Positions 28,901 through 59,490 of a DNA stretch of 64,000 nt are shown here, in pieces. How positions within the stretch are numbered: position 1 is the first letter of the stretch; the number at the start of each line of letters is the position of its first letter. Source of the DNA: Henckelia pumila (taxonomy: Eukaryota > Streptophyta > Magnoliopsida > Lamiales > Gesneriaceae). The stretch is taken from positions 161,835,753-161,899,752 of the forward strand of contig NC_133123.1 of NCBI RefSeq assembly GCF_033568475.1, given 5' to 3'. Both the position numbers and the translations under genes were made by a program. The notes under the pieces were generated by a model, which did no database searches, was not told the origin of the DNA, and saw only the letters and a program-made list of their open reading frames with translations.

Positions 28901-30408
28901 ATTTTGCTGAAGTTATTACATCATAAAAAATATGATTCTTAAATTTCTTGATATCGATTCTGAGGATTGTTATTCGCCTCGATCGATCTTGATTGACTCT
29001 TATTTCTTTGTTAGAGTCTGATTCGATTTACTCGCTTTAAGTTTGATATGCAAGTGAGTTGTTTTCACTGTGCAGATTTTGTCATTCAGAATAATTGATT
29101 TTGGATGACCTTGACTTGAGCGAGTTCCTTTGAGTTTACATTCGCGAATTATTGATTATTTGATGTGTATAGTCATTATATGTTGAAGTTTTTGGCTCGT
29201 AACTGATAGATATTTTGATTTCGAATAGCATCAAGATTTATGGGTTGATTGCATAAGTTGCCAATAATTGAAAAATAGAAAGAAGGAATTAGCTAATTGC
29301 TTGATCGATTGAGTATAGATCTGTAACTTTTATATTTTTTGTACTTGAGTTTCTAGACAGATACTCAAAATTTTTGCAATCCAACCTAAGCTAGATTAGT
29401 TTGGAAAGATTAAAGCAACATTGATATTAGATCAAGCAATGAAAATTCGATTGAGAACACTAGATTAAGATATGAGACAAGAAAACAGATCAGAATAGAT
29501 GAATTATGAGGTGAATAAGTAGTTTGCTTATGCCAGATATTCTAGAAATTGAATATCCGATTCTGACAGAAGCATACTAAACATGTTCAAACGATAATCT
29601 TTTCTCGATCCGTCTTAGATATGATATCGTCGTATATACTAAAACATGTTTATACAATTAAATCTTAATTCTAACAACATATTAAAATTCAAACATTATA
29701 GAACTTCATAAAACTTATGTCAAAAAGAAGCACTCGGAGCTGTGATCGCAAATATACGATCAATCGAAAATTTTATCGGGCGGATCAAAAGATATCGGAG
29801 CTTGAAAGGTTGAAAAATGGCTTGGAAGCCTTCTTTCTTCTCCTCTCGGTTTCTTAGCTGAGTTGGGCTGAGAAATCTGATCAATTCTACATATTACACG
29901 TCTATACATAGCAAGTTTCAAGGAAATTGTGCTTGGTCCTGAATTTTGGCATAATTGCAAATCAGTCTCCGGACAAGCGTTTTAATTTAATTTCAATCCT
30001 AAATAATTTAAAAATGGTAGAATTTAAGTCTAACTCTAAATATTTTAAAATTAAATATTCTCGAATTAAAATTAAATAATTTCGGACCTTATCGCATTTT
30101 AGTCCTTGAACTTCTCAATAGTTGCAAATCGGTCCTTCTTCAATTCTTTGCTTATAAATCAATTCTTTTCATATTTAAACTCATAAATAAAATCTTAAAT
30201 CCCAAAAATAATCAATTCAAATATTCTCTTCTTTTAATTTAAGAATTTTGGATATTAAAATCTTAAAATCCGTAAATCCTCAAATTACATAATTTCGACC
30301 CGAAATTTAAATCTCTACTTTCATAAATTCTCAAATTCATATTTTTTAATATTCGAAATTTAAATCTTAAATCTCGTAATTAATAAATTAATATTTTCAG
30401 GCCTTACA
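25984..30408 (-). mobile_element. Solo-LTR-like copy of a Ty3/gypsy family, with internal insert
   Basis: The copy has TG...CA ends and perfect 5-bp flanking repeats CATAT (25979-25983 and 30409-30413). Read on the minus strand it begins TGTAAGGCC and ends near CCCCACA, as does the copy at 40035-41977. Several blocks match that copy (gcacacatacaaa, tctcagtat, tatgtgatttt, cgacggcgta). The middle, about 27.9-29.6 kb, has no counterpart there and may be a later insertion. It is an old, AT-shifted fossil with no gene of its own that I can support. Confidence 0.65.
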
Positions 30409-30487
30409 CATATGAAACAAGATGTTTAGTATATTAAGAAGTCCACAATAACTAACCATTACTGAGTTAATTTACTGTTTTATAAAT

Positions 30488-30629
30488 GGGGAGTGTTATT
30501 TCCACTCCAAAATTTGTTTCTCTCACTCCACTTTTCTAATTTTTTTTATCTTAACTTACAAATTTTTCCTTAATTAATTACTCATATTTTACTTATTTTA
30601 CTTAGACTAAACTATCCTCTTATAATCAT
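30488..30629. repeat. Left terminal inverted repeat of the MULE
   Basis: Matches the complement of 46468-46589 over most of its length, including cactccaaaa, ctcactccacttt and the inner taacttacaaattt and acttagactaaa words, with small gaps. Confidence 0.85.
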
Positions 30630-31220
30630 TGACTCCATTAACTTCTTTCCTGTTTATACCTATGATTTCCAATCGTAAAATTTCCAATTTTAACATGTTA
30701 CCTTTCTTTTATTTTTTAATACGTTTTATGCCTTTTATTTTGTTTTATTTTTTTTTAGCATAATCTCTCTATATTTGGTATTCCTTTAGAATGAAACAAA
30801 AAGTCAAATAATCCAATATAAGTTTCTCGTTTATTGCATTTTATTTTATATTTGTATTAAAATATCTTTAAAAATTCTATTGTAAAATTTCTATATTTTG
30901 CTTCAATAAAACATCTTTATATCACAATCAAATCAAAATATTAAAATAAATTTAGATTACAAAAATTTGTTTCAATAAAACATCTTACACAAAACAAATT
31001 TAAAAATAAAAACTCAATCTCAATAATGCTAATATCTTGAAATGCATAATTTATTACAATCTGATGTCCTTCGTATCCATATCACCTATCATTGATTCAA
31101 AAAAATTACACATCAGTACATAATACTTCAAATATCTTTTAACATTAATTTGCCTATACTCATAACATTAGAAAATAAAAATAATTACACAGATTAAAAA
31201 AAAGTATTAAACACAAATAA

Positions 31221-31885
31221 TTAGAATGTGTTTACCATTTTAAAATGCATTATTTGCCTCATTGGACGATCTTGTTGCTCCATTTTCTTGGCTGGAAAAT
31301 AATAAAAAAATGATATTTCATTATTTTCGGAATTTTGTGTGCATGTACGAGTATTATGACCCAAACCTTTACATCTGCTACATTTTCGAGACTTTTCGAC
31401 TATTTCAAATTCACTTGGATCACGCTGTGTAGAACCATTTTGTCTTTTCTTTGAACCAGATGGACGACCCCTGCATGGATGGATTTTTGGTTCTTGAATC
31501 ATCAGAGATAGTTGTGCATCTACAATTTGAGAAATCTGTCTTCTGGTATCTTCTTTCTGAGTAATAGGCATTTTTTCGTATGTGCTTCGAAAATCCTTGA
31601 AAAGGCTGTCAACATGTCCATCTTTGAAATTAAATTCTTCTTCAGTATTTGCAAATGATCTTTAGTCAATCCTCCATTGTTGATGAACATCAGCAAGTTC
31701 CAGTTTCTCATTCAACATACCTGTGATTTGATGCGCACAAAGAAGACCCATGGTACTTTGAAAATGACCTCTACATTCCTTAGAAAGTTCTCCAGAAATA
31801 GCTAATTTGTATTGCTTTAAAAGTTGCCCAAGTGCATGATTGGAAACATTTCCAAGAAGATTCTGAAACAAAGTAATGCGAAAAC
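31221..31885 (-). pseudogene. MULE transposase, C-terminal SWIM and zinc-knuckle part
   Basis: Reads a SWIM-type zinc finger (ECRGHFQSTMGLLCAHQI) and, near the end, a CCHC-like knuckle (CSRCKGLGHNTRTC). Both are standard C-terminal parts of FAR1/MULE transposases. One in-frame TAA lies between them. A basic stretch, GRPSGSKKRQN, may be a nuclear signal. Confidence 0.8.
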
Positions 31886-34800
31886 TGTAACGCCCAGAAA
31901 TTCGTCACGTAAATTCGCATGCATAACTAGGGGATTTTATAGTTTTATAATAATGTGAAAAATGTGTTAAATTGTTTTTATGAGTGATTATTTAAATTAA
32001 TTGATTTATTTGCATGTTTTAAATATTATTTCGGCATTTAAATTTGTATGATGTGATTTATGAATTTATTTGAGAAAGTTTATTTTATGATCGCGTAGGC
32101 GGGATCGTGGATGGACGAGATGTTGTTTTCACCCAAAATATTTTATGAGATTTTTAAGAGCCTTAAAATATTATTTTAAGGTATAATTTGAAGAAAATTA
32201 TGGTATTTATATATATATATTAATTTATGTGCTAGTTTTTACCCAAAATAAGTTATTTTAATTACTTTTATTAACCTTTAAAAATCTCCTATTTTATTAT
32301 TTAGAGATTATTAAGTTTTTAGCAAATTATCATGTATTTATTTTAAGTTTAAATTATAGTATTTATCTATCCTAATTATTTATTAATTAATTAACCTAGT
32401 TTATCCTAAGTATCTACCCAAAATCCCTCCCAAACCTACGATCGTATCCCCTAGCCGCCTCCATCACACTCTTCTCCACCATCTTCATTGTTCCATCAGA
32501 TATTTCTTAGCCCCATAGCCGAGCGTTAAAAGTTTTTGGGTTATTTAGAAGATTCGTTCGTCCCGGCGAGCTCGATACACGTCGTTTACGTCGTTTCGTT
32601 CAAATAATTCTCAAGGCACGTTTTGAATCCATCTTTGAACACCGTTTAAATCATATACAATGTTTTTTTTAGCATGAATGTTCTGTTAATGCATGATACT
32701 TAAGTTTTGAACTAAGTTCTTTAAAGATCATGAAGTTGCTCACGTTTTTCATGTGCATGGCCGGTTTCTTTTGTGATTTCTGCTTAAGGCTGGTTCGAGG
32801 AGCTGACCAAGGGCTAGGGGTCTGATCTTGGGTCCTTAGGGTCGGGTTTGGAAGGCTGGTTCAGGGCTGGAAGCAGCTGGAACCATGCAAGAATGGGCTT
32901 TGACAGCAGCTAGGCGAGCAGATTTTAGTACGGGATTTAGGGGCCTTGGCCGAGCCATGCATGGCTTGGCTCGGGCCAGGGCTGGGTCACGTGTTGTGAC
33001 TGGACCCTGGGAGGGTCCAGTCGTCGGGGCTCCGGCCGGTGGTGGCCGGAGCTGGTCATAAAGTTCATGGTTTGTGGGTTGCGCAGTCTGCGCAGCAATG
33101 GAGAAAAGATGGGATCGGGTTGCTCGGTTAGGGGGCTGGCTGGACCAGGGCGTGGTCTGGTCGGTCCGGCAGGACCCTGGGGAGGTCCTTCCAGCGGCTC
33201 TCTAGCCATGGGTGGCCGGAACTAGGCAGTAGCAAGGAGGAAAGGGGCTGCTCACGTGAGATGTAATGGGTTAGGTAGTGTTTTTCTTTTCTTTAGGTTT
33301 TAAACGGGTCGGGCTTTTGTTTTTGGGTCCGGGTCGGGACTTAAATTTAATGGATCAAATAATTTTAGTCCGGGTCTAGATTTTTATTATTTGGGCTTGA
33401 GTATTTTATTTTAATTAAATAAGAGTTTAAGTAGTTAATTAATGGGTTGAGATTGACAAATTAATTAATTGAATTAATATAATGGGCTTTAATAATTTTT
33501 GAGGTGAGCCCACTAATTTTTCATGGATCGTGTGATCTATGAGAATTATTGGGCCAGGTTGTGTCGGGTTTGGTAATTTTATCGGTCTAATTTATAAGTT
33601 AATGGTTAGTTAATAATTTTATTAATTTAATTTTAAGTTAATTAGTTAATGGACTTAAATTTATATTTTAAGTGAGCCCATTATTTTCTCATGGGCCTGG
33701 GGGCCCATGAAGCTTAATGGGCCAGGTCAGGTTGGGCTTTTGGATTTTTGAGTCAGTCTAGGAATTTATGGGTTTAAGTTAAGTGGTCAGCAGCTCGAAC
33801 AAGTCTTTGGAAAAATAAATGTCCGTAAATATATATTTAATTCATGCATGCATTTTTATTAGATATATAGTATGATTTTTAAGAAAATAAATTAAATATA
33901 TATTTACGGACAAATTTTCATGAAAATAAAGAAATAATGAGAATTTTTATGTTCATGCATCATTAAGAATTTTTATGATAAGTTTAATTGCATGTTAAGA
34001 AAAATATATTTTTATGGAAGTTGAAGTGAAGGTGGAAAGTGATATGGTTGGAGGCCGGGATACCTGGGCCCGGTGACCTTCCTAATGATGTTTATGTATG
34101 ATGAGCTTATGGATCCAGCTGAGAGGGCTGGTGAAGTGGCAGCACAGAGGTGGAAATCCCACCGCCACGTACGGTTGTTTATAGATTGATCAATCGCTCA
34201 GTATGATGCCACCGACATGGATACGACCTGTTGAGAACTAAGAATTCATGATAAGTTATTTTATGAGATTTATTAAGTATGATGATACATGTTTAGCATT
34301 ATGATAAATCAGTATGATTATTTATTTATGTTTATATGCATATAATTTTAAGATCATGCACGTATAATTATTATTCACATATTTTATATGATGTGTGCTT
34401 GTGTGTGATTTTATTTTGTTATGTAAGGATAGAACGTGCTGAGCCTCTAGGCTCACTAGATTTAATTGGTGCAGGTGAGCAGAATGTTAATGAAGTTAAT
34501 GTGTTCACGACTGGCGGCGAGGGCGTATGAGTATCCAGGCGGCTAGTACCCGTGACCATTGCTCTAAGATGAATTTTATGTTGAGACTAGAACATTTATT
34601 TCCGCATATGTTTTATTATTATAGATTTTCAGTATATGCATGAATTTTAGATTTAAGTATTTATTTTCTAAGTTTTCATGAATTTATGTGAAAGAAATAT
34701 TATTTAGGAGTTTTATTATGGCATTCTTATAAATTATTATTTAGTAATTATTTTTAAGTATTTAATTGCATGCGTGTACTTTTATTGTATCTTTTGTGTA

Positions 34801-34936
34801 TTTGTATTTTTAAATTAAGTAAAGTTATTTTTAAGTATGATATATATATGTATGGGCATATATATATGTTTATATCCATTGTTTTATTATCATAGAGTAA
34901 AAAAAAAAAAATCAGTAGAAGTTTTAGGATGTTTCA
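31886..34936 (+). repeat. 5' LTR of the gag-only element
   Basis: TG...CA ends, closely similar to 36678-39731. The middle (about 32.8-33.25 kb) is GC-rich and the rest AT-rich. The LTR is unusually long relative to the 1.7-kb internal region. Confidence 0.92.
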
Positions 34937-35133
34937 TTTGGTATCAGAACCATGGTCCTTGGAGGGTGACTAGTCTGCTTCTCGGAGCTCAGAAGCCGCA
35001 CTGCCAGTCTGTAAGTTTTAAGTGTTTTAAATTATGATTTATGCATGGGACACAGGAGTTATATTTTTAATGATTTATGAAAAAAAGAATTTAAAGTTAC
35101 GACAGTCTTAAAGTCAAAAATATTAGTTATGCA

Positions 35134-36186
35134 TTGCGATTTACGGGGGGGAATATGTGGTGGTGCAGTATGCCTCCTAGACAGATGAACCGACGCGGGA
35201 ATCCTCCAACTCCTCCTCAGCAAAATTCGCTCACAGCACTGGAGCAGGCTAGTGCTAATATGATGACAGGGATCACCGCACTGTTGGAGCAACATGCAGC
35301 ACGACCCCGACTTACACATGACGAGGACGTTGCGGAACGGTTTCAGAAGAAAGGACCGAAGGAGTTTTCTGGTTCCGCTGATCCACTCGTGGCTGAGGGG
35401 TGGATCCGTTCCTTGGAGACCATATTTGCTTATATGGGACTCACTGATGCCGATAAAGTAAAGTGCGCGGTGTACATGATGAAAGATGATGCAGCCCTTT
35501 GGTGGGAGGGCGCAGTTCGAGGTGTGAACCCACAGACTTTGACGTGGGAGGAGTTCAAGCGGATGTTCTTTGCCAAATATTTTACTGAGGATGTGCGCAG
35601 ACGAATGATTTGGGAGTTCATGAGTCTCCGGCAGGGGGACAAGACGGTGGTTGAGTATATCAAGCAGTTCGAGAGGGGGTGTCATTTTGTGCCCCTGATT
35701 GCTGATAGTACGCAGGAGAAGATGAGACAGTTCATCGATGGACTTAGGGCGGACATCAAGCATGATGTACGCATGATGGACGTCACCACTTATGAGGCAG
35801 CGGTGAGTAGGGCACTACGATCCGAGGATGGTAGGAAGGAGATCTTGAGGGAGCAGCAGAGGAAGAGGCAGTTCCAACCATCGTACCACGAGTCGTATCC
35901 ACAGCAGGATGCAAAGAAGCAGGCCACTGGGCCGTCGAAGGGCCCAAACCCACTGAGACAGCAAGGAGCTATCGTTCCTCGTGCAGAAATACTACCTCTC
36001 TGCCAGAAATGCCAGAAGCCCCATCCAGGGCCGTGCATGAAGGGATCAGACATGTGCTACCATTGCAAGGAACCGGGACACATTATGCTGCACTGTCCCA
36101 AGAAGAATGCTACGGGACGAGTCTATGTGATGCAGACGGAGGAAGCAGTACCGGATACTTTGCGCATCATGGGTAATTTTATTTAA
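35134..36186 (+). CDS. Gag-like open frame of the gag-only LTR element
   Basis: Open for about 350 codons; the likely start is the MPPRQMNRRG methionine. The middle has the retrotransposon gag signature (DPLVAEGWIRSLETIF, KCAVYMMKDDAALWWEG) and the end a CCHC zinc knuckle (CYHCKEPGHIMLHC). Gag forms the particle that packages element RNA. The clade is probably a chromovirus (Tekay/Del-like), which is an inference. Confidence 0.85.
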   Translation: MRFTGGNMWWCSMPPRQMNRRGNPPTPPQQNSLTALEQASANMMTGITALLEQHAARPRLTHDEDVAERFQKKGPKEFSGSADPLVAEGWIRSLETIFAYMGLTDADKVKCAVYMMKDDAALWWEGAVRGVNPQTLTWEEFKRMFFAKYFTEDVRRRMIWEFMSLRQGDKTVVEYIKQFERGCHFVPLIADSTQEKMRQFIDGLRADIKHDVRMMDVTTYEAAVSRALRSEDGRKEILREQQRKRQFQPSYHESYPQQDAKKQATGPSKGPNPLRQQGAIVPRAEILPLCQKCQKPHPGPCMKGSDMCYHCKEPGHIMLHCPKKNATGRVYVMQTEEAVPDTLRIMGNFI

Positions 36187-36712
36187 CGCATTAAATTTGT
36201 CGCATTTGGATTGCTCGATTCGGAACTACACGAGGAAACTTGTTCTTGCCTAGATTTTGTTTCAATTTCGAGGACGAAATTCCATTTAAGGGGGAGAGAA
36301 TTGTAACGCCCAGAAATTCGTCACGTAAATTCGCATGCAAGGAGTTATCGTTCCTCGTGCAGAAATACTACCTCTCTGCCAGAAATGCCAGAAGCCCCAT
36401 CCAGGGCCGTGCATGAAGGGATCAGGCATGTGCTACCATTGCAAGGAACCGGGACACATTATGCTGCACTGTCCCAAGAAGAATGCTACGGGACGAGTCT
36501 ATGTGATGCAGGCGGAGGAAGCAGTACCGGATACTTTGCGCATCATGGGTAATTTTATTTAACGCATTAAATTTGTCGCATTTGGATTGCTCGATTCGGA
36601 ACTACACGAGGAAACTTGTTCTTGCCTAGAGTTTGTTTCAATTTCGAGGACGAAATTCCATTTAAGGGGGAGAGAATTGTAACGCCCAGAAATTCGTCAC
36701 GTAAATTCGCAT
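35961..36712 (+). repeat. 376-bp internal tandem duplication
   Basis: The 3' part of gag, the polypurine tract and the first ~35 bp of the LTR occur twice head to tail (copies from 35961 and 36337). The copies are nearly identical. The junction lies at a shared gca. Confidence 0.88.
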
Positions 36713-39700
36713 GCATAACTAGGGGATTTTATAGTTTTATAATAATGTGAAAATGTGTTAAATTATTTTTATGAGTGATTATTTAAATTAATTGATTTAT
36801 TTGCATGTTTTAAATATTATTTCGGCATTTAAATTTGTATGATGTGATTTATGAATTTATTTGAGAAAGTTTATTTTATGATCACGTAGGCGGGACCGTG
36901 AACGGATGAGATGTTGTTTTCACCCAAAATATTTAATGAGATTTTTAAGAGCCTTAAAATATTATTTTAAGGTATAATTTGAAGAAAATTATGGTATATA
37001 TATATATATATATATTTATTTATGTGCTAGTTTTTACCCAAAATAAGTTATTTTAATTACTTTTATTAACCTTTAAAAATCTCCTATTTTATTATTTCGG
37101 GATTATTAAGTTTTTAGCAAATTATCATTTATTTATTTTAAGTTTAAATTATAGTATTTATCTATCCTAATTATTTATTAATTAACTAACCTAGTTTATC
37201 CTAAGTATCTACCCAAGATCCCTCCCAAACCTACGATCGTATCCCCTAGCCGCCTCCATCACCCTCTTCTCCACCATCTTCATTGTTCCATCAGATATTT
37301 CTTAGCCCCATAGCCGAGCGTTAAAAGTTTTTGGGTTATTTAGAAGATTCATTCATCCCGGCGAGCCCGATACGCGTCGTTTACGTCGTTTCATCCAAAT
37401 AATTCTCAAGGCACGTTTTGAATCCATCTTTGAACACCGTTTAAATCATATACAAATATTTTTTTAGCATGAATGTTCTGTTAATGCATGATACTTAAGT
37501 TTTGAACTAAGTTCTTTGAAGATCATGAAGTTACTCACGTTTTTCATGTGCATGGCCGGTTTCTTTTGTGATTTCTGCTTAAGGCTGGTTCGAGGGGCTG
37601 ACCAAGGGCTAGGGGTCTGATCTTGGGTCCTTAGGGTCGGGTTTGGAAGGCTGGTTCAGGGCTGGAAGCAGCTGGAACCATGCAAGAATGGGCTTTGACA
37701 GCAGCTAGGCGAGCAGATTTTAGTACGGGATTTAGGGGCCTTGGCTGAGCCATGCATGGCTTGGCTCGGGCCAGGGCTGGGTCACGTGTTGTGACTGGAC
37801 CTTGGGAGGGTCCAGTCGTCGGGGCTCCGGCCGGTGGTGGCCGGAGCTGGTCATAAAGTTCATGGTTTGTGGGCTGCGCAGTCTGCGCAGCAATGGAGAA
37901 AAGATGGGATCGGTTGCTCGGTTAGGGGGCTGGCTGGACCAGGGCGTGGTCTGGTCGGTCCGGCAGGACCCTGGGGATGTCCTTCCAGCGGCTCTCCGGC
38001 CATGGGTGGCCGGAACTAGGCAGTAGCAAGGAGGAAAGGGGCTGCTCACGTGAGATGTAATGGGTTAGGTAGTGTTTTTCTTTTCTTTAGGTTTTAAACG
38101 GGTCGGGCTTTTGTTTTTGGGTCCGGGTCGGGTCTTAAATTTAATGGATCAAATAATTTTAGTCCGGGTCTAGATTTTTATTATTTGGGCTTGAGTATTT
38201 TATTTTAATTAAATAAGAGTTTAAGTAGTTAATTAATGAGTTGAGATTGACAAATTAATTAATTGAATTAATATAATGGGCTTTAATAATTTTTGAGGTG
38301 AGCCCACTAATTTGTCATGGGTCGTGTGATACATGAGAATTATTGGGCCAGGTTGTGTCGGGTTTGGTAATTTTATCGGTCTAATTTATAAGTTAATGGT
38401 TAGTTAATAATTTTATTAATTTAATTTTAAGTTAATTAGTTAATGGACTTAAATTTATATTTTAAGTGAGCCCATTATTTTCTCATGGACCTGGGGGCCC
38501 ATGAAGCTTAATGGGCCAAGTCAGGTTGGGCTTTTGGGTTTTTGAGTCAGTCTAGGAATTTATGGGTTTAAGTTAAGTGGTCAGCAGCTCGAACAAGTTT
38601 TTGGAAAAATAAATGTCCATAAATATATATTTAATTCATGCATGCATTTTTATTAGATATATAGTATGATTTTTAAGAAAATAAATTAAATATATATTTA
38701 CGGACAAATTTTCATGAAAATAAAGAAATAATGAGAATTTTTATGTTCATGCATCATTAAGAATTTTTATGATAAGTTTAATTGCATGTTAAGAAAAATA
38801 TATTTTTATGGAAGTTGAAGTGAAGGTGGAAAGTGATGTGGTTGGAGGCCGGGATACCTGGGCCCGGTGACCTTCCTAATGATGTTTATGTATGATGAGC
38901 TTATGGATCCAGCTGAGAGGGCTGGTGAAGTGGCAGCACAGAGGTGAAAATTCCACCGCCACGTACGGTTGTTTATAGATTGATCAATCGCTCAGTATGA
39001 TGCCACCGACATGGATACGACCTGTTGAGAACTAAGAATTCATGATAAGTTATTTTATGAGATTTATTAAGTATGATGATACATGTTTAGCATTATGATA
39101 AATCAGTATGATTATTTATTTATGTTTATATGCATATAATTTTAAGATCATGCACGTATAATTATTATTCACGTATTTTATATGATGTGTGCTTGTGTGT
39201 GGTTTCATTTTGTTATGTAAGGATAGAATGTGCTGAGCCTCTAGGCTCACTAGATTTAAATGGTGCAGGTGAGCAGAATGTTAATGAAATTAATGTGTTC
39301 ACGACTGGCGGCGATGGCGTATGAGTATCCAGGCGGCTAGTACCCGTGACCATTGCTCTAAGATGAATTTTATGTTGAGACTAGAACATTTATTTCCGCA
39401 TATGTTTTATTATTATAGATTTTCAGTATATGCATGAATTTTAGATTTAAGTATTTATTTTCTAAGTTTTCATGAATATTTGGGAAAGAAATATTATTTA
39501 GGAGTTTTATTATGGCATTCTTATAAATTATTATTTAGTAATTATTTTTAAGTATTTAATTGCATGCGTGTACTTTTATTGTATCTTTTGTGTATTTGTA
39601 TTTTTAAATTAAGTAAAGTTATTTTTAAGTATGATATATATATGTATGGGCATATATATATGTTTATATCCATTGTTTTATTATCATAGAGTAAAAAAAA

Positions 39701-39731
39701 AAATATTCAGTAGAAGTTCTAGGATATTTCA
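36678..39731 (+). repeat. 3' LTR of the gag-only element
   Basis: Partner of 31886-34936, with the same ends and interior. A polypurine tract precedes it. Confidence 0.92.
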
Positions 39732-39736
39732 AAAAC

Positions 39737-40034
39737 AGTGAGGCGTACGGATTTTTTTTTTTTGGAGAAGGGCCTTGATTTCTTTAATTTGGTTCTCAAT
39801 TGCAAGGCATATTTTTTTCTTTCACATGGCGCAAGTTACCAGTTGAAACTTGAAGGTATTTCTTGAGCATTGCATGAGCACCCTCAGCCCTTGATGTCAC
39901 ATAATTCCCAAAATGCAAACACTTTTCAGTCCATGCAAAGACGAACCTCTGTTTATAGGAAAGCCAATTATTTTTTATATAATCAACAGTTATTGGCTTA
40001 TCCTTGTATTGAATCTCAAAGAGATGTCATCCTC
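39737..40034 (-). pseudogene. MULE transposase, third catalytic segment
   Basis: Contains FAWTEKCLHFGNYVTSRAEG and AHAMLKKYL, which carries the third acidic residue of the DDE triad (RAEG) typical of plant MULEs. The frame breaks after LRHVKE. LTR insertions flank it on both sides. Confidence 0.82.
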
Positions 40035-41977
40035 TGTGGGGCCTCGGATTGCTAATCTCATTCTTAGGGCAATTAGTAATTAAAAATCATTAATTAACAA
40101 AGAAAGGAATAAGATCAAACAAAATTTTTTTTTCAAAGGGGGGTGCGCGGGGTCGGTCAAAAAGAGCAGATCGTTCCCCCCCTCCCCCCTAACCCAACTC
40201 TCGGGTTGAGGAAAAATGGACTGCACTCGGTCTGCCAAAAAGAGCAGACCGAGTACAACTCTGGGCAGTCTTTTGCTCTGGTTTTTTACAGAAAAATTTG
40301 ATCCTTTAAACCCCTCCAATCCAACATAATGATGTCCCAAAACATGTAGACATACATAGAACAAGATCTAAACATGTTCATAACAAGTTGATACATCAAA
40401 CCAACCATTAGGAATCCAACAAAAGCATAAAACTATACAAGGTGTTCATCAACTTCTCAAGAACAACATTCATAAGTGTTTCTAACATGCTTGCTAGTCT
40501 TCTAAATTCACCAAATCAGCTACACAACCCGAGTACACATATTTATCCTCTTGCATGAGCTACCCTCGGTGACTTTGGCCAGCTCCTGCCCCATCTGTTG
40601 TCATGCACACATACAAAATAAGACAGCAGCCGGGAACATCCGGTGAGAATACAATCTCAGTATAATCAACATATATACGCGTTAAATAAAAACATATCGA
40701 CTCTAAACATTTCAACTCAAGAATAGAGTAAACGCATATATAAAGAATTGATTCCTATCACACTCTTTGCCATCAAGATTCGTATACGATCTTGACATGG
40801 ATATCCATCTATCGTCGTCTCATCAGACTCGAAAATAAGGTCGCCTCAGACCTTGGCATAAGAATCAACTCATATCTCATATCATATCATATCAAATAAA
40901 GATCCACTACTTGATATGGATCGACAACATTAATAATCTAAATACAAGCAATAAACAAGTATGTGATTTTGGCGGGACAACTCAAGAAACTTCATTCTCG
41001 AGTTTCAAATCCCTGACTTGCGATGTCATATTATACCTTTCGTTTTCTTCTCGGTTCTTGAAATACTTCAAATCTGAAATATAATATCAAGAACTCATAT
41101 ATCAACTTTATTCAAATTCATAACTCAAATTTCATTCAATCTGCACAAACAAATCAACCTCAACCTAGCTCATTTCTTCTTCGATTTGAAATCAAACTTC
41201 TTGACGTCGTCACTCTCTTGACAGGCTGAAAAAAGGTGAACATAAGCTCAATATATCAGCAAAACATCATATCAAACTCAGCTCAATCAACAAGATATCA
41301 AAACGGCTTAAAATCATCAACCGACGGCGTAGCGACTAAAAATCGGTAACCGAAACAATATCGACTTCGATCCAACAATCATACACCATATATATCAGCA
41401 TATTAACATAAAAAAATCAGCATACCAACAGCTATATATAGGTCGAACCACCAGCTGGAAATCATAAGAACTCAAAACAATAACCGTTCGTCGAGCCGGT
41501 GTCGATACGATACAACAAATAATCTCAAAAACATGCATACATAAATGAATTCTGATCTGTAGCATATCTCAATCTTCAAACATGATTGAAAGGTAAGAAA
41601 ACTTACACCAAATCGAAGCCCTCGTTGCAAGGATTCCGGAACTATGCTCGAAATTAAATTCAGACAAAAATCAAATTTCAAGAGAAAATGAGGTCTCGGT
41701 GTTTTGCTCTGAATTTTTGAAGTAACTAAGCAAAGTACACGTGAACATGCTGACTATTCAATTCAAATTCAGATATATTCAAGCCAAATTTCATTTTAGT
41801 CCCTCAATTCTTCAATATTTGCAATTCGATCCTCAACCCTTATTTTAATTCAATTTCAATCCGATATAATTTAAGAATATTAGAATTTAAATCAAAATTC
41901 TAAATATTCCCAAATTAAATATACTCAGATTAAAATTAAATAATCTCGAATTAAATCCAATAATCCCGGGCCTTACA
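40035..41977 (-). mobile_element. Solo LTR, Ty3/gypsy family
   Basis: 1.94 kb with TG...CA ends. On the minus strand it starts TGTAAGGCCCGGG and ends CCGAGGCCCCACA. The flanking 5-mers TCCTC and TCCTT match at four of five bases. It lies inside the transposase frame (EPSFDKG). No internal region or second LTR is present, so it is a product of LTR-LTR recombination or a related non-coding form. It is more diverged at its target repeats than the gag-only element, hence probably older. Confidence 0.82.
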
Positions 41978-42774
41978 TCCTTTATCAAAGCTTGGTTCAT
42001 CAAGTGAATATACTATATCAGTCCAACTTGACAAAAACTTGTCAAAATCTTCTTTCTTGTCAAACAACTTCTTGCATTTTGCTAGAATATTTTTTTCTAT
42101 ATGCCATACACACAAGAGATGTGTCGTCATGGGGAATACCTTGCAAATAGCATTCATTAATGCTAATTCTCTATCAGTAACAATTACTTTTGGACCTTCA
42201 TCAACGTCCAGAATTGTCTTGAATCTTTCTAATGCCCAAATGTAGTCTTCTTCCTCCTCCTTACACAAAAACACTAAACATGAATAAAATGATGTATTAA
42301 AACTTGAAATTCCAATAACATCAAGAAGTGGCATGCAGTATTTGTTAGTCTTATAAGTGCAGTCCATATTAAAGACATTTGGGAAGGTCTTTGTCAAAAT
42401 CATTGAGCTTGGATGCGAGAAGAACAAGCGAGTGAAGTAATTATCTTTTTCAAACTCTATATCATAGATGAAGCTATTTTCACCAAGTTCTTCCAACAAA
42501 GCTTCAATCATCGTTCGCCCTCTCAACTCCTCCTTTATTATCTTGAATCTTGCATTATACACAGTTCTTGAGATAGCTTGAAGTGACGGTTTACTTTGTC
42601 GAAGTGATGTAAGAATTTCCCTTGGAGCAGAACCAGTCATTGACATTGTTCTAATCATATGCATATCATCTTCAGAAAATCGACGACACATAGGATGACC
42701 TGATAAATCACTTGAAGGCTCATGATTGTGTGACAAATTCTTAATGTATATTTTCCAAACACCATCTTTCTTTT
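41978..42774 (-). pseudogene. MULE transposase, DNA-binding end and catalytic core
   Basis: The frame resumes next to the insertion as KKKDGVWKIYIKNLSHNHEP, completing the FAR1 zinc-binding domain (HNH). It then runs into the MULE DDE domain: first Asp in FNMDCTYKTNKY, second in VIVTDRELALMNA, followed by THLLCVWHIEKNI. These are the standard MULE signatures. The segment is open throughout and is cut downstream by the next LTR insertion at EPSFDKG. Confidence 0.88.
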
Positions 42775-43107
42775 TGTAGTTACCCTTACCCGGATCACCT
42801 ACTAAACAGAACTTAGGCATGCAATTAACTTAATTAAACAGATATCAGAATAAACTGCGAAAACATTACAAATACTACAATCCCAAGGCAAGGAATCTGT
42901 AAAAATCCAATTAGATTATACAACCATATCGAAAAGCTGTATCAATCCGATAACAACAGAAATAAAAACCTAAGCGAAGCTCCAGCTGAACAACCGCTGC
43001 CTAGCCCCTCTTGGAACCACCCGCCTCGTCCAATCGCAAACCTGCCCCATGGAATAGGGTGTCCAGAAATACAAAGTACGAGACGTGAGCATAAAAAGCT
43101 CAGTACG

Positions 43108-44323
43108 TGTAGCGACCCAACCCGGATCCACTACCTAATCAGAGTTAGGATCATAATTGAACATGCATTAAAGAAATTACTGCGGAAGACTTAAAGAAAA
43201 GCAGACCGGTAGAATACAACCGGTTAAATAAATTCGATTATACAACCCAATCGAATAACTAAGCCTAAAGGGCAAAAACCTACAGCTAATCCTGCTGTCT
43301 TCACTGGTCACTGGCTACTCCAAGCTCCTGGTGCACAATCCTGCACCTACACCTGCCCCGTCGAATGGGGTGTCCAGATACACAGAAAAGACTGGACGTG
43401 AACTCTAAGCTCAATACATAAGCAATGATATATATAATATATGCAGCACATAAGTGTATTTAAAACAAGGGTTTAAACAATAACTCAGGGCGCCAAGAAT
43501 ATGCAGGGCTGTGCCAGATAGCTAGTCTGCGGTGCCGCTCTCATATTCTCCTATCGACTATAGCGTCTGCTCCACCGTCGTGGTCGCTCCTAGTGATAGC
43601 AAAACCAGGGGCTGAGTGTCCCCAGACACGAATCCTCAGGAAGAAACGCCTCAACTGATGGAAACTGTCTAGACTCACATCGTACTGGATGCAGTCTCCG
43701 TAAAAACATGCATGTGCTAAAGCCATAAAAACATGGTAAAAACAAGTAGCACATACTCATGCAACACATACAATATATATCATGCTGGCCATCTCAGTCA
43801 GTACTTACGTACCTCACTACAGGCAGTTCCTAGAAGTCCCACCCTAGGTTCCAAGCCTATCATCAATTCTACAATGCAAAATACCCATGCATCATTCAAT
43901 AAGCTCTAAAAGCCTTAACTAAGCTATTGCATACTCCTAAATAATTTAAGGAGACCATAGCTATACCTGCGTCCGTCGTCAGCCCACTGATGGCGACTAT
44001 CCTGCAACTAGGGGCACACCCCTGCTGCAGCTCCACAGTCTCGAGCACTGCTCCGCTACACGAGCACTACTCTACTACTATGTCAGACACTGTCTGACTA
44101 TACTAAAATATGTTTCATACTTCAACTCTAAAATAAGAGTACCCAAAGTCCTAAATAGAGCCACGTGGGTGAAGGAGAGGAACTCGGTGCGCTTTGAAAT
44201 GAAGCCCTCGCACCTATATTTATAGACATCGATCGGAAGCTCCGTTCCTGATCGGAGCTTCCGATATTGCTCAATTATGCTCCTAAATCTGATTAGGTAG
44301 TGGATCCGGGTTGGGTCGCTACA
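43108..44323. mobile_element. LTR-like insert with long inverted ends
   Basis: Begins TGTAGCGACCCAACCCGGAT and ends with its inverted complement. The inverted match runs about 57 bp with only a few differences. The flanking 5-mers GTACG and GTATG match at four of five. Part of the interior resembles the host LTR (cctgccc..ggaat(a/g)gggtgtccaga), so the two are likely related families. TG...CA ends with a 5-bp target repeat suggest a solo LTR; the long inverted ends are unusual for one. Confidence 0.7.
44232..44265. repeat. Perfect 13-bp hairpin
   Basis: Arms atcggaagctccg and cggagcttccgat are separated by 8 bases. It sits inside the nested LTR-like element near its right end. Confidence 0.85.
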
Positions 44324-45330
44324 GTATGAGAGTATGAGTATACATGCATGCAAAGTGAACTCCCTATAACTCGAGGTCAAAGATCAGATAACAGAGACAG
44401 ACCGGGCCCTGGTATGTAGCACGCTGTGCCGTCGCTGCAGGAGGTGGCTCCCATACCAATATACCAGTGGATATGCCGGACCCAAATCGATGGAAGTCCA
44501 TCCACTAACAGGATAGGGTACAACCCTACTAATATACATCTCGAATGAGATAGCTCAATATGCAGATGAATGAAGCATAAATCAATGACATATAAATCAT
44601 GCAGTCACATAATACATGCATACTCAGTCAGGATATCTCGAACAGTACTATCGTACCTAACACCAAAGTCTGAACTAAGCTGGAAGAAGACAACCCCTAG
44701 CTGCCTTAGGTTCAAGTCCCAACCCGACCTGGTCTCAAGACTGACCCGACCTGTCCTCTCCCTTCAAGCCCGACCTGAACTGCTCCTGGTCAAGCCCGAC
44801 CTGAACTGCTCCTGGTCAAGCCCCGAGCTACTCCTTCCCGAACTCCCGAGCTACTCTTTCCGAGCTCCCGAGCTACTCCTTGGTCCGAGTAGAACTAAGA
44901 AGTGAGATGAAATGGTGTAAAATGACTGAACCCTCGACTTCTATTTATAGAGGATGAGCCGGGACAGGTGTCAATCGAGTGCATGAGCAGGACACTAATC
45001 GTGTTATAGCTCCAGCCACGTGTCCATTTCCGACCTGAATACCATGTGTTCTTCCCATGACCGAACACTACCCTGGCCTTGCACATCACTTTCTTGAGCA
45101 CCCTAAGCCCCGACCCGAGCCAATCACTAACACATTCCCGAGCCCTAGCTCCAAGCCCGAGCTCTTGCTCAATGCCCGAGCTATTGTTGAACAACCATGA
45201 CCGACCCGAGCTACTCATGACCGACCCGAGCTACTCATGTCATGTGTTCTTGATCTTAACTTATGCTCTTGTTAATAAAATATAATTAAGCAATTAATCT
45301 TGTAAATTGGAACTGGGCTACTACACTTTT

Positions 45331-46383
45331 TACCCTATATTTCAAATGGACAATTTATGAGGCGAGTTTCCGTGCCTAATCTTTTCCTATTCTCCACTGG
45401 AATAGGTTGGTAAGTTCCTCCTCTATCACAACCAACAACGACATAATATTTTGGTTTAGATCTTCTGATGACTAGTACATATCCTTGTTCAAGAGCAGCC
45501 TTCCGAAAGCTTTCTTGAAGCTCTTCACGACATTCAAAATTTTTACTTGATAAGCAAAGAAAAGCATTGAAACCTTCAACACAGTTATTTTGCTCACTTT
45601 GTATTTCTTTCCCTAGCACAACTTCAGCCATCCCTTTTTGTTTGATATTAGAATTGCCTGACCAAGAAAAAATTGGGAGCTAAAGAAATTGTTTATATTA
45701 CAAAATATAAATCATATTCAGATTTGGGAGCTAAAGAAATTCGAGATGGATGACACCATTATTTATATATTTTCTGCTTATTGTGATTATCAACTATAAA
45801 AAATGTATATGTTGTGCATCTTAATGTGAAGAATGGGATTAATAAATCTCCGGTAACAAAAAAATTAATACATGTAAAATCAATTCTTTATCTCTAAAAG
45901 TGAAATCTATGTGAATGTTACTGATTTTCGTGCTCACAAATTTGAGTAATTCTTGCTTCCATTTAGCAAATTCAATTTAGTCTCACAAATCTAAATTTCC
46001 TTACGTTATCAATTAATCTCAAATAAACTACTAATTAAGTTGAATTTTAAACAAAAAATATCTCATATCACCAAAACTTTTGCATTAAAGTTTTTTTTAA
46101 TCTCAATATCATGGTTGAATTTCAATAGCAAGATTATCGTTCCAAAAAAACAAAAACAAAAACAAGAAATAATAATAATAATAATTATTATTATAATAAT
46201 AATAATATATAATAATAACAAACACAAAGCAAAAAATTGAAAGATACAATACTTACAATTCGTTAACGATTGATAACAATCTTCGTACAAAATTTCTTCA
46301 ATATCTTTTGAAATCCTTAATTGTATTATTTGATCAACTTCATCATTACTCTCTAAATTGTGGAGGCTGTGATTTTCTTCCAT
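45331..46383 (-). pseudogene. MULE transposase, N-terminal exons
   Basis: Exon 1 (46383-46257) starts MEENHSLHNLESNDEVDQ and ends at a strong GTAAGT donor. Exon 2 begins at 45657 after CAG in matching phase and reads SFRKAALEQGYVLVIRRSKP and a TRLINCPFEI stretch, the start of a FAR1-type DNA-binding domain. A TAG at 45335-45337 interrupts the frame just before the LTR insertion. The intron contains an (AAT)n tract. Confidence 0.8.
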
Positions 46384-46467
46384 GGTCAAAGAAAGCAAAA
46401 TGAGACAGATGATGAGAAGAAATAAAACAAAGTGTAAGAAGGAAAATATTATTGCTTAAGATTATGA

Positions 46468-46589
46468 AAGGCCATTTTAGTCTAAGTTAAATGAGGAGTA
46501 ATTAAGTAAGGGTAAATTTGTAAGATAAGATAAGAAATTAAAAAAGTGGAGTGGGAGAAATAATTTTTGGAGTGGGAATAATACTCCAC
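46468..46589. repeat. Right terminal inverted repeat of the MULE
   Basis: Complement of the left terminal repeat. It lies just upstream of the transposase ATG at 46383, so it probably carried the transposase promoter. Confidence 0.85.
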
Positions 46590-46598
46590 TTTATAAAT

Positions 46599-48945
46599 TT
46601 GCATAAATTTAATGGAGACAGTATAAGAATATGGAATTTGATTTTAAAATATATATATATATATATATTTTGTGGGCGCAAGCGTCAATTTGCAAGGGCG
46701 GAACCACATGTCAGCCCACATGGGTTGTAGCCTACATGAGCTCTTTTATTTTTATTTTTTCACATTGACATTTTAGTCCAACTTGTATTTAGTCCCAAGT
46801 AGATAAAGAAATACAACCCAGAAAATCCAAATTTTTTGTATTTAACCTGGTAGAAAAAGAAAGATAGTGCCGATAAATTTTTTTTGAGATTTTGGCTCAA
46901 AAAATTGAGATTTTAGACGAAATAAAATCTAATTGCTATGAAGTTAATTGATGAGTATTATTTTGCATTTTTTAAATAAAATTTTTAGCTCGAGTTGCAT
47001 CAAATTTTTGGCTCCCCACACTAGGCCAAGGGAAGCTCCACGCCCGTGGTTATAAGATAAAAAATTATTTCTCATGAATTAGTGCATCTTGCCATAATGT
47101 TTAATACACCATTAATGTACTTTACACGCGATGTGCGCATATATAAAAAATTTTAAGTTATTTAATTTTCTTGATAATTTTAGGATGATACAATGAATAT
47201 AATATTAAAAGTTCATATAAATATAAAACAATACTTAGTAATTTAAAAAATTCCAATTTATATTATATTATATATATAATTAATTAAAATTTATAGCAAA
47301 ATAACGTGGCTAAAATTCATGATTTGTAGGCTGTAGCTCATCTAACACCAAGATCTCAAATTTGAAATAACACATAAGTTCAAAACTCAATCATAACAAT
47401 CATATCTCAAAACTTTTTCCCCGTAAAAATCTTCAATATTTTCACCTTACAACTCAAAATTTGATGTCTAATTCACAAATAAACACACACACCATATACT
47501 ACTTTACATCTCAAGGTCATAACAATCTTTAGTTTGTAGGGCAAGAGGTCTTGGAGTCTTGCAAAGTGACAGCCTTTTTTTTTTTATAACAAAAAACTTT
47601 CATGTCAAGTTAGTTCCTTTCCCTTCAAGTCCAAACAAATGGTCTCAAGTTTCCTTCACAACTACTCATTTATTGGTGCATTGCTTCTATTCCAAAGTAC
47701 CCTTTTTGTAAAGGCAACATTAACACTTACCACTTTCCTCTTCCGAATAAAGCAAACTCGAGAAAATTCACCAGGAAAGTCTTGAAAATATCTATCTATA
47801 CTTGACATGGCTCGATCGATGTGTTCTGATAAGATAAACCAAATAAATAAAACGGTTAATCAAATAGACCACTTCTATGAAATCTCAGAATTGCAAAAAA
47901 CTCTTTGTGAATAAATATCGATCGATTAGCTCTTCTATTTTTTAATCTTGAGTATAATCATCCCTATGTTTTTAAATTTTGTACACATATATATGACTCA
48001 CCCCTTTGCTAGTACTTGTTTTCGGGGATATGCGTGCTCAAGATTTAAAAATACGAGGAGTTAATAACCATAAGAGAGTTTTAACAATCTCGATATAACT
48101 ATCACTAAATAAAATTTAAAAGAAATTTATTTCAAAAAAAAGATTATTATATCATCGTCGTAGATCGAATAAAACATTCTAAAAGCTCATAGATTTGAAT
48201 TGAAGTATACATAGTGGATGCCACTCTACTATAAGTTGTGTGGCAAACAAGTCCTTTTTTGTATGAGCTTTGCGCATGTTCTAGTGCTACCATATAAATT
48301 ATATAGGCGTGCTAGAGATAAGCTAGCCTTGTTGGACCTTTTGCCCTGCCTTGTGTCTCATGCAAGCAATTACTTTTTTATGGATAATTTTATGTGACAA
48401 CTATATGGTAGTGGTGTTTTTTTTTTTAAAAGTAATCTAATACTCCTTCCATTTGTGGGTTTTTCATACAAATTTAAAGTATAATTGAAAAAAATCCTAT
48501 TTTATTTTATTTTATACATTTACAATGTATTTGTAACCAATCAATTTGACGGAATGTGGAATTGAAAATATTGTTTTAGTTTTTGAAAAAAATGAGATTT
48601 AACGATATAAAATTATTTTTAATTTATATACCTTACTTCATAAATTTTAAGTCTTCTTTAAAAATTTTTACAAAATATCATTTATCCAAATTATTATCAA
48701 TTCCAAATTATATTTTAAAATTTTGCCAAACACTATAATGAGATTCCAATGTCATGGATTTAAAATACAAATCAAATTCAAATTCTAAATCTCATTTTTA
48801 AGGCATCCTAACACATTGTTAAGAAATATTTGAACATATTTTAAAATTCTAATCAATTGAGGTATATTAGTAAAAGGATAAGAATAAATGCTACTCATAT
48901 AAATTGGACTATATATTTAAATCAACCGAAAAATCTATATATTAA
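46599..48945. other. AT-rich spacer with a hAT-like remnant
   Basis: At about 46692-47046 a block starts CAAGGGCGGAACCAC and ends CACGCCCGTG in inverted orientation, like the CAGTGGCGGAGCCA hAT MITEs, but no matching 8-bp target repeat was found. An AT microsatellite lies near 46650. No host gene is supported. Confidence 0.4.
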
Positions 48946-56820: not shown

Positions 56821-59490
56821 ATGGCTTCTTCCAAACCCATCTTTCTCACATTTTTCGTTGTCGTTTTGCTCTTCGCGACGCGCTTAAGTATTGTCGTTTC
56901 CATAAAGATAGATCCGCGGCCGGAGAACCAGACTCTCCGGCCGGGACAGGAGTTGGACAAGTTCAGGAGGATTAGGAGTTACCTCAAAAAGATCAATAAG
57001 CCTGCTGTCAAGACAATCAAGGTCTCTTAATTCCTTCTGCTAAAATTTTTCGGGTTCAGATAAAAATCCATTTTCATGATAAAGTTTTCTTGTTTAGTTT
57101 TCGGAGTAGGCCATAACGTTTTTCTTTTTCTTTTGCTTTTTTTTTTTTTTTTTTTTTGCAAAATTTTTTAGAGTCCATATGGTGATGATGTAATAGATTG
57201 TGTTCTATCTCATCATCAACCAGCATTTGATCATCCTCTGCTCAAAGGACACAAACCTGCGGTACGTACGTTTGATTCGCCAATCTCATCTATTTCTTGT
57301 CAAGAACATTTATATATAGCACATTTAATTCGAGTTAGTTTTATGGGATTTGTTAAAATATTAATGTTGTTAATTTCTTGAATTTTGGATTGCAGGAACC
57401 ACCAAAAAGACCGAAGGGAAACGGTTCATTCGACTCGATCACATCGGAGACATTTCATTCATGGATCGATACCGGCGAACTGTGCCCCGACGGAAGCATT
57501 CCGATCAGAAGAACGACGGCTGAAGATGTTCTCAGGGCCAGCTCTATCGGCAGGTTCGGTAAAAAACTCGCGAGAGGCGTCCGGAGAGACACGACCAGCA
57601 GCGGTCACGAAGTTAGTCTATCAGCTATAACTTTTGATATTAATACTACCATGTTTTCGAGAAGTGGGAGTCAAATCAAGTTTTTTAAGGGGAAAAAATA
57701 TTATTCAATTCAAACATCCAAGTATAAAAGTAGTATATTAATTAAGTTTCCAATTATATATTAATACGCAGCATGCAGTGGCATTTGTGAATGGAGATCA
57801 GTACTATGGAGCAAAGGCCAGTATTAACGTGTGGGCGCCACTTGTCACAGATGAGTACGAATTCAGCCTATCACAACTTTGGGTCATTTCTGGCTCATTT
57901 GGCAATGATCTTAACACCATCGAGGCGGGTTGGCAGGTTCATATATAGTCGTCATGTTATGGTATTTTTGTGAAATTTTGTTAACGAAAAATTGAAAAGT
58001 GCTTCGTAAAAAATTTGTCAGACACTACTTATAAACGTTATCGATCGTTGATAGATCATCATAATATATATATTTTTTTACTTACGAGGTAGTTGATATG
58101 AATTCAGGTTAGCCCGGAATTATACGGAGACAATAATCCGAGGTTTTTCACATATTGGACGGTATGACGATGTTTTTTTTTTTTTTTAATTATTACGGAG
58201 TGTCGAAATTCGAACACATTGCTGATGAAAGAAACATTGGATGTATAACAGACGGATGCATATCAAGCTACTGGATGTTACAACTTGCTATGTTCTGGAT
58301 TTGTCCAAATCAACAGCAAAATCGCGATCGGGGCAGCGATATCTCCGAGATCATCTTACAGTGCTAAGCAGTTCGATATCGGCATTATGATATGGAAGGT
58401 GTGCAAGTTTTCGTATGTATATTTATAAAATAATTAAACAAAGGACTATATGATTCTTTTTATATATACTTGGTTTGCTCCAATGTTTCTAATATAATAT
58501 TTGCAAGATTCTCTTCTTTGCCCCCAATTGCATACATTAATCCACTGTTATCTCACTCTTCTTGCAATTAAATATTGTTTCTTAGTTGACCCTTGCAAGT
58601 TCAAGAATCTTGGTTACCATTCCTAAATTATTTCTATATTATACTAATCGAAGTCCCTCGAAGGTTTTTATATTGATTTGCTAGCTAAATTATGAAGTTT
58701 TTATATTAGGATTAGAGTCATGTGATATGTACAATGAAGAAGGTTACATACATGGTTATACATCACTTCTAAAATTACAAAAATATCTCAAATCGAATCG
58801 TGAAAAGATTTTTTCATTGCGATAATTTTGTAATTTCAAAGACAACGTATAACCGTACGTATAACCTTCATCACATATGCCACATTTTTTTTCTTCAAAA
58901 TTTAAGATTTGGTAAACTATTTTTTCGAGTAGTGTACAGTGTACACCTAGGGGAAAACTAGGGGCACGCCCACAAACCAAGGGATGGGTGGAAATGGACT
59001 AAATTCTTTACTTGTTTAATGTTTAGATCCGAAGGGACCACACAAAGTGAAGAATTATAGAATATGGATATTTTTCGATGTCACTTACTTCTATGTGTGT
59101 GTATATGTCCAGGATCCGAAACACGGACACTGGTGGCTCGAGTTCGGGTCCGGCCTCCTCGTCGGATATTGGCCGTCGTTCTTGTTCTCCCACTTGCAAA
59201 ACCATGCAGACATGGTTCAATTCGGGGGTGAGATAGTGAACTCGAGATCAATGGGGTACCACACATCGACCCAAATGGGGAGTGGGCACTTCGCTGATGA
59301 AGGGTTTGGGAAAGCATCTTATTTTAGGAACTTGCAAGTTGTTGATTGGGACAATAGCTTGCTCCCTTTGTCCAATCTTCATCTCTTGGCTGATCATCCT
59401 GATTGCTATGACATAAAATCTGGGAAAAATGATGTTTGGGGCAATTATTTTTACTACGGCGGCCCGGGGAGGAACTCGAAATGTCCGTAA
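56821..59490 (+). CDS. Neprosin-domain (DUF239) secreted protein
   Basis: Seven exons, 56821-57021, 57172-57261, 57396-57611, 57772-57936, 58108-58161, 58252-58398 and 59113-59490, all in phase 0, give 416 aa. Residues 1 to about 28 form a signal peptide. An N-terminal activation region follows (SPYGDDVIDCV, QPAFDHPLLKGHKP), then the neprosin domain from HAVAFVNGDQYYGAKASINV onward. Neprosins are glutamate peptidases that cut after proline. The likely catalytic pair is E220 in NTIEAGWQ and E331 in QFGGEIVN. E220 was placed by analogy with neprosin E188 and E331 with E297, using the GW-Q and GGE contexts and similar spacing. Cysteines in TGCYNLLCSGF probably form a disulfide. The ATG at 56821 is the one that gives the signal peptide. 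Most plant paralogues have no known substrate. Whether this one is active is unproven. Confidence 0.9.
57960..58035. repeat. MITE-like fragment in neprosin-gene intron 4
   Basis: The words tttgtgaaattttgttaacg, aaaagtgcttcgtaaaa and gacactact resemble the foldback element at 50051-50210 and the fragment near 23.87 kb. Confidence 0.4.

Follow-up and report, generated by a model that had tools for sequence, protein, structure and literature searches.

An inserted-into MULE of Henckelia pumila: four LTR-type insertions at two levels of nesting

Nested insertions are ordinary in the genomes of plants, and those in Mutator-like elements (MULEs) have been counted. Among candidate coding MULEs they occur in 191 of 530 (36%) in maize and in 195 of 476 (41%) in rice; 107 of the 195 rice cases trace to one insertion of a miniature inverted-repeat transposable element (MITE), without which the rice figure is about 24%, while in maize most nested MULEs contain RNA-element insertions and those with a single insert make up less than 47% (PMC3903597). 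The DNA considered here, called the window below, is a stretch of 64,000 nucleotides of Henckelia pumila contig NC_133123.1 (assembly GCF_033568475.1, positions 161,835,753 to 161,899,752), which contains no N and has 33.9% G+C. Its positions 30488-46589 are read by us, with a probability of roughly 0.93, as a MULE split by later retroelement inserts, clear in layout and well preserved. Three inserts of long terminal repeat (LTR) type, numbered 1 to 3 along the window, interrupt the transposase gene, and insert 4 lies inside insert 3 (Table 1).

The stack is thus of an already known kind. Like the maize and rice coding MULEs, this element bears a transposase and has more than one retroelement insertion in its coding region; unlike them, it displays two levels of nesting, with three of the four inserts solo-LTR-like (PMC3903597). 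Most datable LTR inserts in that survey are younger than 1 million years (My), and insert 1 comes to about 0.8 or 1.4 My under the rates assumed below. The rice TLI2 locus is similar in that a MULE flanked by a clean duplication, of 10 nt as against 9 in the present case, has received an LTR insertion with a 5-nt duplication, and solo-LTR haplotypes of that locus are known; TLI2, however, is a tandem of two elements with a common LTR, whereas insert 1 has only a short internal duplication that takes in 38 bp of LTR (PMC11899658). A TR-GAG element able to transpose has been described, and it shares with insert 1 the two LTRs, the single gag open frame and the lack of pol, although the mobile example is related to ATCOPIA63 while the gag domains of insert 1 are of Ty3/gypsy type and its LTRs measure 3 kb (PMC8704663). 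Plant MULE transposases and FAR1/FRS proteins combine a MULE domain with zinc-finger-like N-terminal and SWIM-like C-terminal motifs (PMC6000157, PMC2528002), and the present transposase may do likewise. Unlike the FAR1/FRS genes, this copy is broken, with in-frame stops, and has inverted ends and a target-site duplication, and it is therefore a transposon copy; a domesticated FAR1-type gene was rejected as a candidate on these grounds. The stack does not change existing knowledge, but it provides a clear worked example, with each junction readable, of the way DNA transposons in plants come to be fragmented and buried by retroelements. A genome-wide survey could build further on two features described below, the LTR with inverted ends and the short duplication inside insert 1.

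The outer boundaries are the first line of evidence. The perfect 9-bp duplication TTTATAAAT claimed in the preliminary description directly adjoins the inverted ends on both sides; a length of 9 nt is typical for plant MULEs (PMC2528002), while 10 nt is given elsewhere as canonical (PMC11899658). In the realignment on which that claim was to stand or fall, both the 9-mers and the terminal repeats matched, the latter in a BLAST alignment of 30479-30595 with 46597-46483 (84.7% over 118 columns, E 6e-26). As the duplication is itself nearly palindromic and was included in this match, the inverted ends proper amount to about 108 bp. Long terminal inverted repeats of this sort are present in many, though not all, MULEs. 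The ends are imperfect, with a mismatch already at the second base, whereas the duplication is perfect. As a control, all position pairs with identical flanking 9-mers were collected (30001-30999 by 46000-46999): among the 59 such pairs the MULE pair was the best, with 25 of 30 terminal bases matching as against 16 of 30 in the runner-up. Random pairs of local 9-mers agreed in 108 of 2,000,000 draws.

Table 1. Positions in the window of the MULE, its transposase pieces and its inserts
Feature	Positions	Strand	Basis or remark
MULE target-site duplication, left copy (TTTATAAAT)	30479..30487	.	sequence alignment
MULE terminal inverted repeat, left	30488..30595	+	BLAST; weaker similarity reaches ~30627
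Transposase segment E	31221..31880	-	terminal stop 31221-31223; zinc-motif patterns found
Insert 1, gag-only Ty3/gypsy-type LTR element (TR-GAG-like)	31886..39731	+	paired LTRs, gag domains
Insert 1, 5' LTR, 3051 bp	31886..34936	+	98.0% to 3' LTR
Insert 1, gag open frame, stop to stop, 363 codons	35095..36186	+	PF03732 E 2.5e-17, PF19259 E 1.1e-12
Insert 1, 376-bp tandem duplication	35961..36715	+	375/379 identical
Insert 1, 3' LTR, 3054 bp	36678..39731	+	alignment with 5' LTR
Transposase segment D	39732..40029	-	frame analysis
Insert 2, solo-LTR-like, 1943 bp, TG...CA	40035..41977	-	strand judged only by TGTAAGGCCC start
Transposase segment C (MULE transposase domain, open throughout)	41978..42769	-	PF10551
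Insert 3, solo-LTR-like, TG...CA, 2551 bp including insert 4	42775..45325	-	ends and duplication
Insert 4 inside insert 3, LTR-like, 1216 bp, TG...CA	43108..44323	-	TATA box; insert 3 similarity
Transposase segment B (probable exon 2, start inferred, ends at insert 3 junction)	45326..45657	-	frame analysis
Transposase probable exon 1	46257..46383	-	ATG at 46383 to GTAAGT donor; limits inferred by eye
MULE terminal inverted repeat, right	46483..46589	-	BLAST and alignment
MULE target-site duplication, right copy (TTTATAAAT)	46590..46598	.	sequence alignment

The second line of evidence is the transposase, the pieces of which do follow one another along the minus strand between the inserts as had been claimed, in the order exon 1, B, C, D, E. 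The MULE domain is found in segment C only (PF10551, E 3.8e-26, 91.8 bits against a cutoff of 27.6), which also matches the RNaseH-like ZSWIM1-3 family more weakly (E 7.4e-12). For segments B, D and E a Pfam search relaxed to E 10 brought up nothing relevant; the irrelevant sub-cutoff matches are GH3_N_vert in B and Folate_rec in a part of E. The frame of the exon 1 region (46066-46455) has no Pfam match. When the longest stop-free frame of each segment was compared with 1000 dinucleotide shuffles, frames as long or longer appeared in 4 shuffles for B, none for C, 165 for D and 9 for E, so that openness alone gives segment D no support.

The best link between the pieces is the continuity of their reading frame, calculated with one copy of each 5-bp duplication. 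Across insert 3, segment B together with one CTTTT ends at a codon boundary and C begins in frame; across insert 2, C plus one duplication copy makes exactly 264 codons and D stays in frame. At insert 1 segment D leaves one base over, and a change of frame that can be seen near the A-run 39812-39818 brings it into agreement with E. Each exact fit would be obtained by chance with a probability of 1 in 3.

The protein is a candidate for the FAR1/Jittery-type architecture, which consists of a WRKY-GCM1-type zinc finger, a MULE core and a SWIM finger: the core matches Pfam, the C-terminal pattern was located in the sequence and the N-terminal motif was recognised by eye, while the flanking domains have no Pfam match. 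The CPF ... HNH region straddling insert 3 is taken by us to be zinc-finger-like, and two Asp residues in segment C and a Glu in segment D are presumably the putative catalytic residues of a DDE motif. In segment E we likewise take the located patterns CRGHFQSTMGLLCAH and CSRCKGLGHNTRTC to be SWIM-like and CCHC-like, respectively. Among NCBIfam models segment C gave IS256 (E 1.9e-06), IS1249 (0.0056) and a RecJ model (0.043), none of them anywhere near its cutoff, and four other proteins gave no matches. None of 177,635 distinct sequences of solved structures matched segment C at E up to 0.1. Relatives of this segment were sought in viral and in prokaryote contigs, where 5 and 102 pattern matches, respectively, yielded no confirmed case, as would be expected since these collections include no plants.

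The transposase is damaged apart from the insertions. It has in-frame stops in segments B (TAG 45335-45337), D (TGA 40027-40029) and E (TAA 31662-31664), and the frame change in segment D is a one-base frameshift; these lesions could be older or younger than the inserts. The designation of the element as a complete MULE thus holds for its two ends only, while the transposase is not a working one: with three stops, one frameshift and three inserts the element is not an autonomous MULE and would be defective even without the inserts, which leaves its status as a MULE unaffected. A Pack-MULE was also considered and was rejected on finding no host-gene domain in the pieces searched (30488-31220 was not searched as protein).

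Several observations weigh against reading the whole as an interrupted MULE. Of the four main transposase segments, C is the only one for which Pfam gives a relevant match, and the open frame of segment D is no longer than chance would give. Two of the four insert duplications contain a mismatch. Both the MULE ends and the solo-LTR status of the inserts are known from this one locus; the only additional copy of any of the elements lies in the left flank and is a diverged relative of insert 2.

The direct repeats AAAAC, TCCTC/TCCTT and CTTTT are all present at the junctions of the three primary inserts, as the preliminary description had them. It called the three inserts LTR elements; this is borne out for insert 1, which has two LTRs, whereas inserts 2 and 3 have the appearance of solo LTRs. 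Insert 1 lies between perfect copies of AAAAC (31881-31885 and 39732-39736). Its LTRs are 98.0% identical, with 60 differences at 3049 aligned sites (Kimura two-parameter distance, K2P, 0.0200), namely 41 transitions, 11 of them in CG context by a crude count, and 19 transversions, in addition to 7 gap columns. At substitution rates which we take to be 1.3e-8 or 7e-9 per site per year, insert 1 would be about 0.77 or 1.43 My old, values that serve as a rough guide. Its internal region of 1741 bp contains gag, and pol would not fit into it; of the two frames searched there, one is gag and the other a zinc knuckle below the cutoff. Primer-site-like and polypurine sequences are also present, and the element has the composition of a TR-GAG, that is two LTRs and a gag open frame with no pol.

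Insert 1 has in addition a 376-bp tandem duplication that covers the end of gag, the polypurine tract and 38 bp from the start of the LTR, and at its junction these 38 bp are joined to the gag end at a shared 3-base GCA. The two copies differ at 4 of 379 sites and the LTRs at 60 of 3049, so that, going by the raw counts, the copies appear somewhat more alike than the LTRs. An origin of the duplication at or after this insertion would fit the sequence. One likely cause may be a template switch during reverse transcription, and a later repair event may be another.

The claim of a fourth insert of 1.2 kb inside another also proved correct. Insert 4 is flanked by GTACG (43103-43107) and GTATG (44324-44328), a duplication with one C/T mismatch that was missing from the earlier list of junctions. 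The two ends of the insert are inverted copies of each other over 56 bp, with 95% complementarity. Since the inverted repeats shared by LTR ends are described as short (PMC3601003), this is long for an LTR, and both facts could speak for insert 4 being a DNA transposon, with terminal inverted repeats of 56 bp, instead of a solo LTR. We consider such an identity unlikely, because the 3' part of insert 4 aligns with the LTR-like insert 3 in plus/plus orientation (60% over 340 columns, E 3e-12; a second, weak stretch, also plus/plus, has 69% over 84, E 7e-05), both inserts have a TATA box on the minus strand, and insert 4 has TG...CA ends and a 5-bp duplication, albeit with one mismatch. Inverted repeats close to LTR ends are not unprecedented, as the LTRs of Sire have a different inverted repeat at the 5' end of U3, which pairs outside the LTR (PMC3601003). 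No description of LTRs with long inverted ends was found in the titles and abstract openings of the papers listed by the literature searches, which is no proof of their absence; the phrase 'palindromic LTR' does occur in PMC2253517. The end of insert 4, as an exact 21-base pattern, had no match in viral contigs, and its first 11 bases occur in the texts of 9 papers, none of which, judging by title, deals with plant transposons.

The 105 bases of insert 4 up to the TATA box contain the 5' inverted end and a hairpin, the stability of which (z -3.36) was reached in none of 200 shuffles. Tentatively, and with considerable doubt, insert 4 might stem from a lineage of LTRs that have lost the original 5' end of U3 and carry in its place the 3' end of the same LTR in inverted copy. 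Both ends recognised by the integrase may then be one and the same 56-bp sequence, followed by the hairpin just before the TATA box. Should this be true and common to many copies, there would be a retroelement lineage whose LTRs have transposon-like inverted ends.

The events behind the stack may be proposed as follows. The MULE would have been inserted by its transposase with duplication of 9 bp of the target. Retroelements would later have landed in it, integrase placing three of them independently in the transposase gene, each with a 5-bp duplication. Insert 1, a gag-only element of Ty3/gypsy type, would have borrowed its pol functions from another element, while recombination between LTRs probably left inserts 2 and 3 as solo LTRs, and a further LTR-like insertion would have landed inside one of these, insert 3. 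The transposase would also have gathered its stops and frameshift, and the MULE has presumably lost its activity.

The insertion history is less resolved than had been claimed. The simplest account has the MULE arriving first, and the order of inserts 1, 2 and 3 is, as stated, free, not being derivable from this copy; placing the 1.2-kb insert last of all does not follow, since insert 4 is necessarily younger than insert 3 alone, and insert 1 or 2 may have arrived after it. The inserts probably landed at this site and not at an earlier site of the MULE. It might be argued that the MULE moved when it already carried one or more of them, as rice MULEs have been amplified with a nested MITE inside (PMC3903597), and in a single copy with a perfect 9-bp duplication nothing dates the MULE insertion relative to the inserts. 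Such a transfer is distinctly improbable, in that the inserts break the transposase gene and bring the element to 16 kb, so that the transposase of another copy would have been needed.

Inserts 2 to 4 have the features of solo LTRs, namely TG...CA ends, a 5-bp duplication and no internal domain, as judged from repeat searches and open-frame lists; the repeat searches also gave no paired LTRs in inserts 2 and 3. The duplication of insert 3 is perfect (CTTTT, 42770-42774 and 45326-45330), and that of insert 2 has one C/T mismatch (TCCTC 40030-40034, TCCTT 41978-41982). Random 5-mer pairs agree with at most one mismatch in 48,640 of 2,000,000 draws, and as random 5-mers so often agree this well, the imperfect duplications of inserts 2 and 4 are weak alone; they are backed by the TG...CA ends and, at insert 2, also by the reading frame. 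That inserts 2 and 3 are instead non-coding or truncated elements which happen to start with TG and end with CA, as might be supposed from the lack of an internal domain, primer site or second LTR to identify them, from a longest direct repeat of 39 nt within insert 2 and from the absence of the TATAAATA, TATAAAA and TATATAA forms of the TATA box on its minus strand, is highly unlikely given their solo-LTR-type ends and 5-bp duplications, the frame continuity across both sites, the TATA box of insert 3 and the diverged relative of insert 2. This relative occupies 29589-30408 (63% over 506 columns and 84% over 106), with matches reaching 30312, and by eye it ends in GGCCTTACA at 30408, 70 bp to the left of the MULE duplication.

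On the window as a whole neither Rfam at gathering scores nor ARAGORN with bacterial settings gave a match. Six of the ten flanking frames searched match Pfam families, which are apyrase (GDA1_CD39), SOUL, FAF1-like, DUF568 with cytochrome b561, and two parts of neprosin. Taken with the MULE and the Ty3-type element, these families point to plant DNA. The pieces of the neprosin-type gene lie downstream of the stack at 57357-59490 (Neprosin_AP E 2.2e-14, Neprosin E 4.6e-43). At 3344-3495, where the open frames 2917-3423 and 3395-3958 meet, neither of them with a Pfam match, there is a 76-bp tandem duplication (97%) that appears to shift the register between the two frames.

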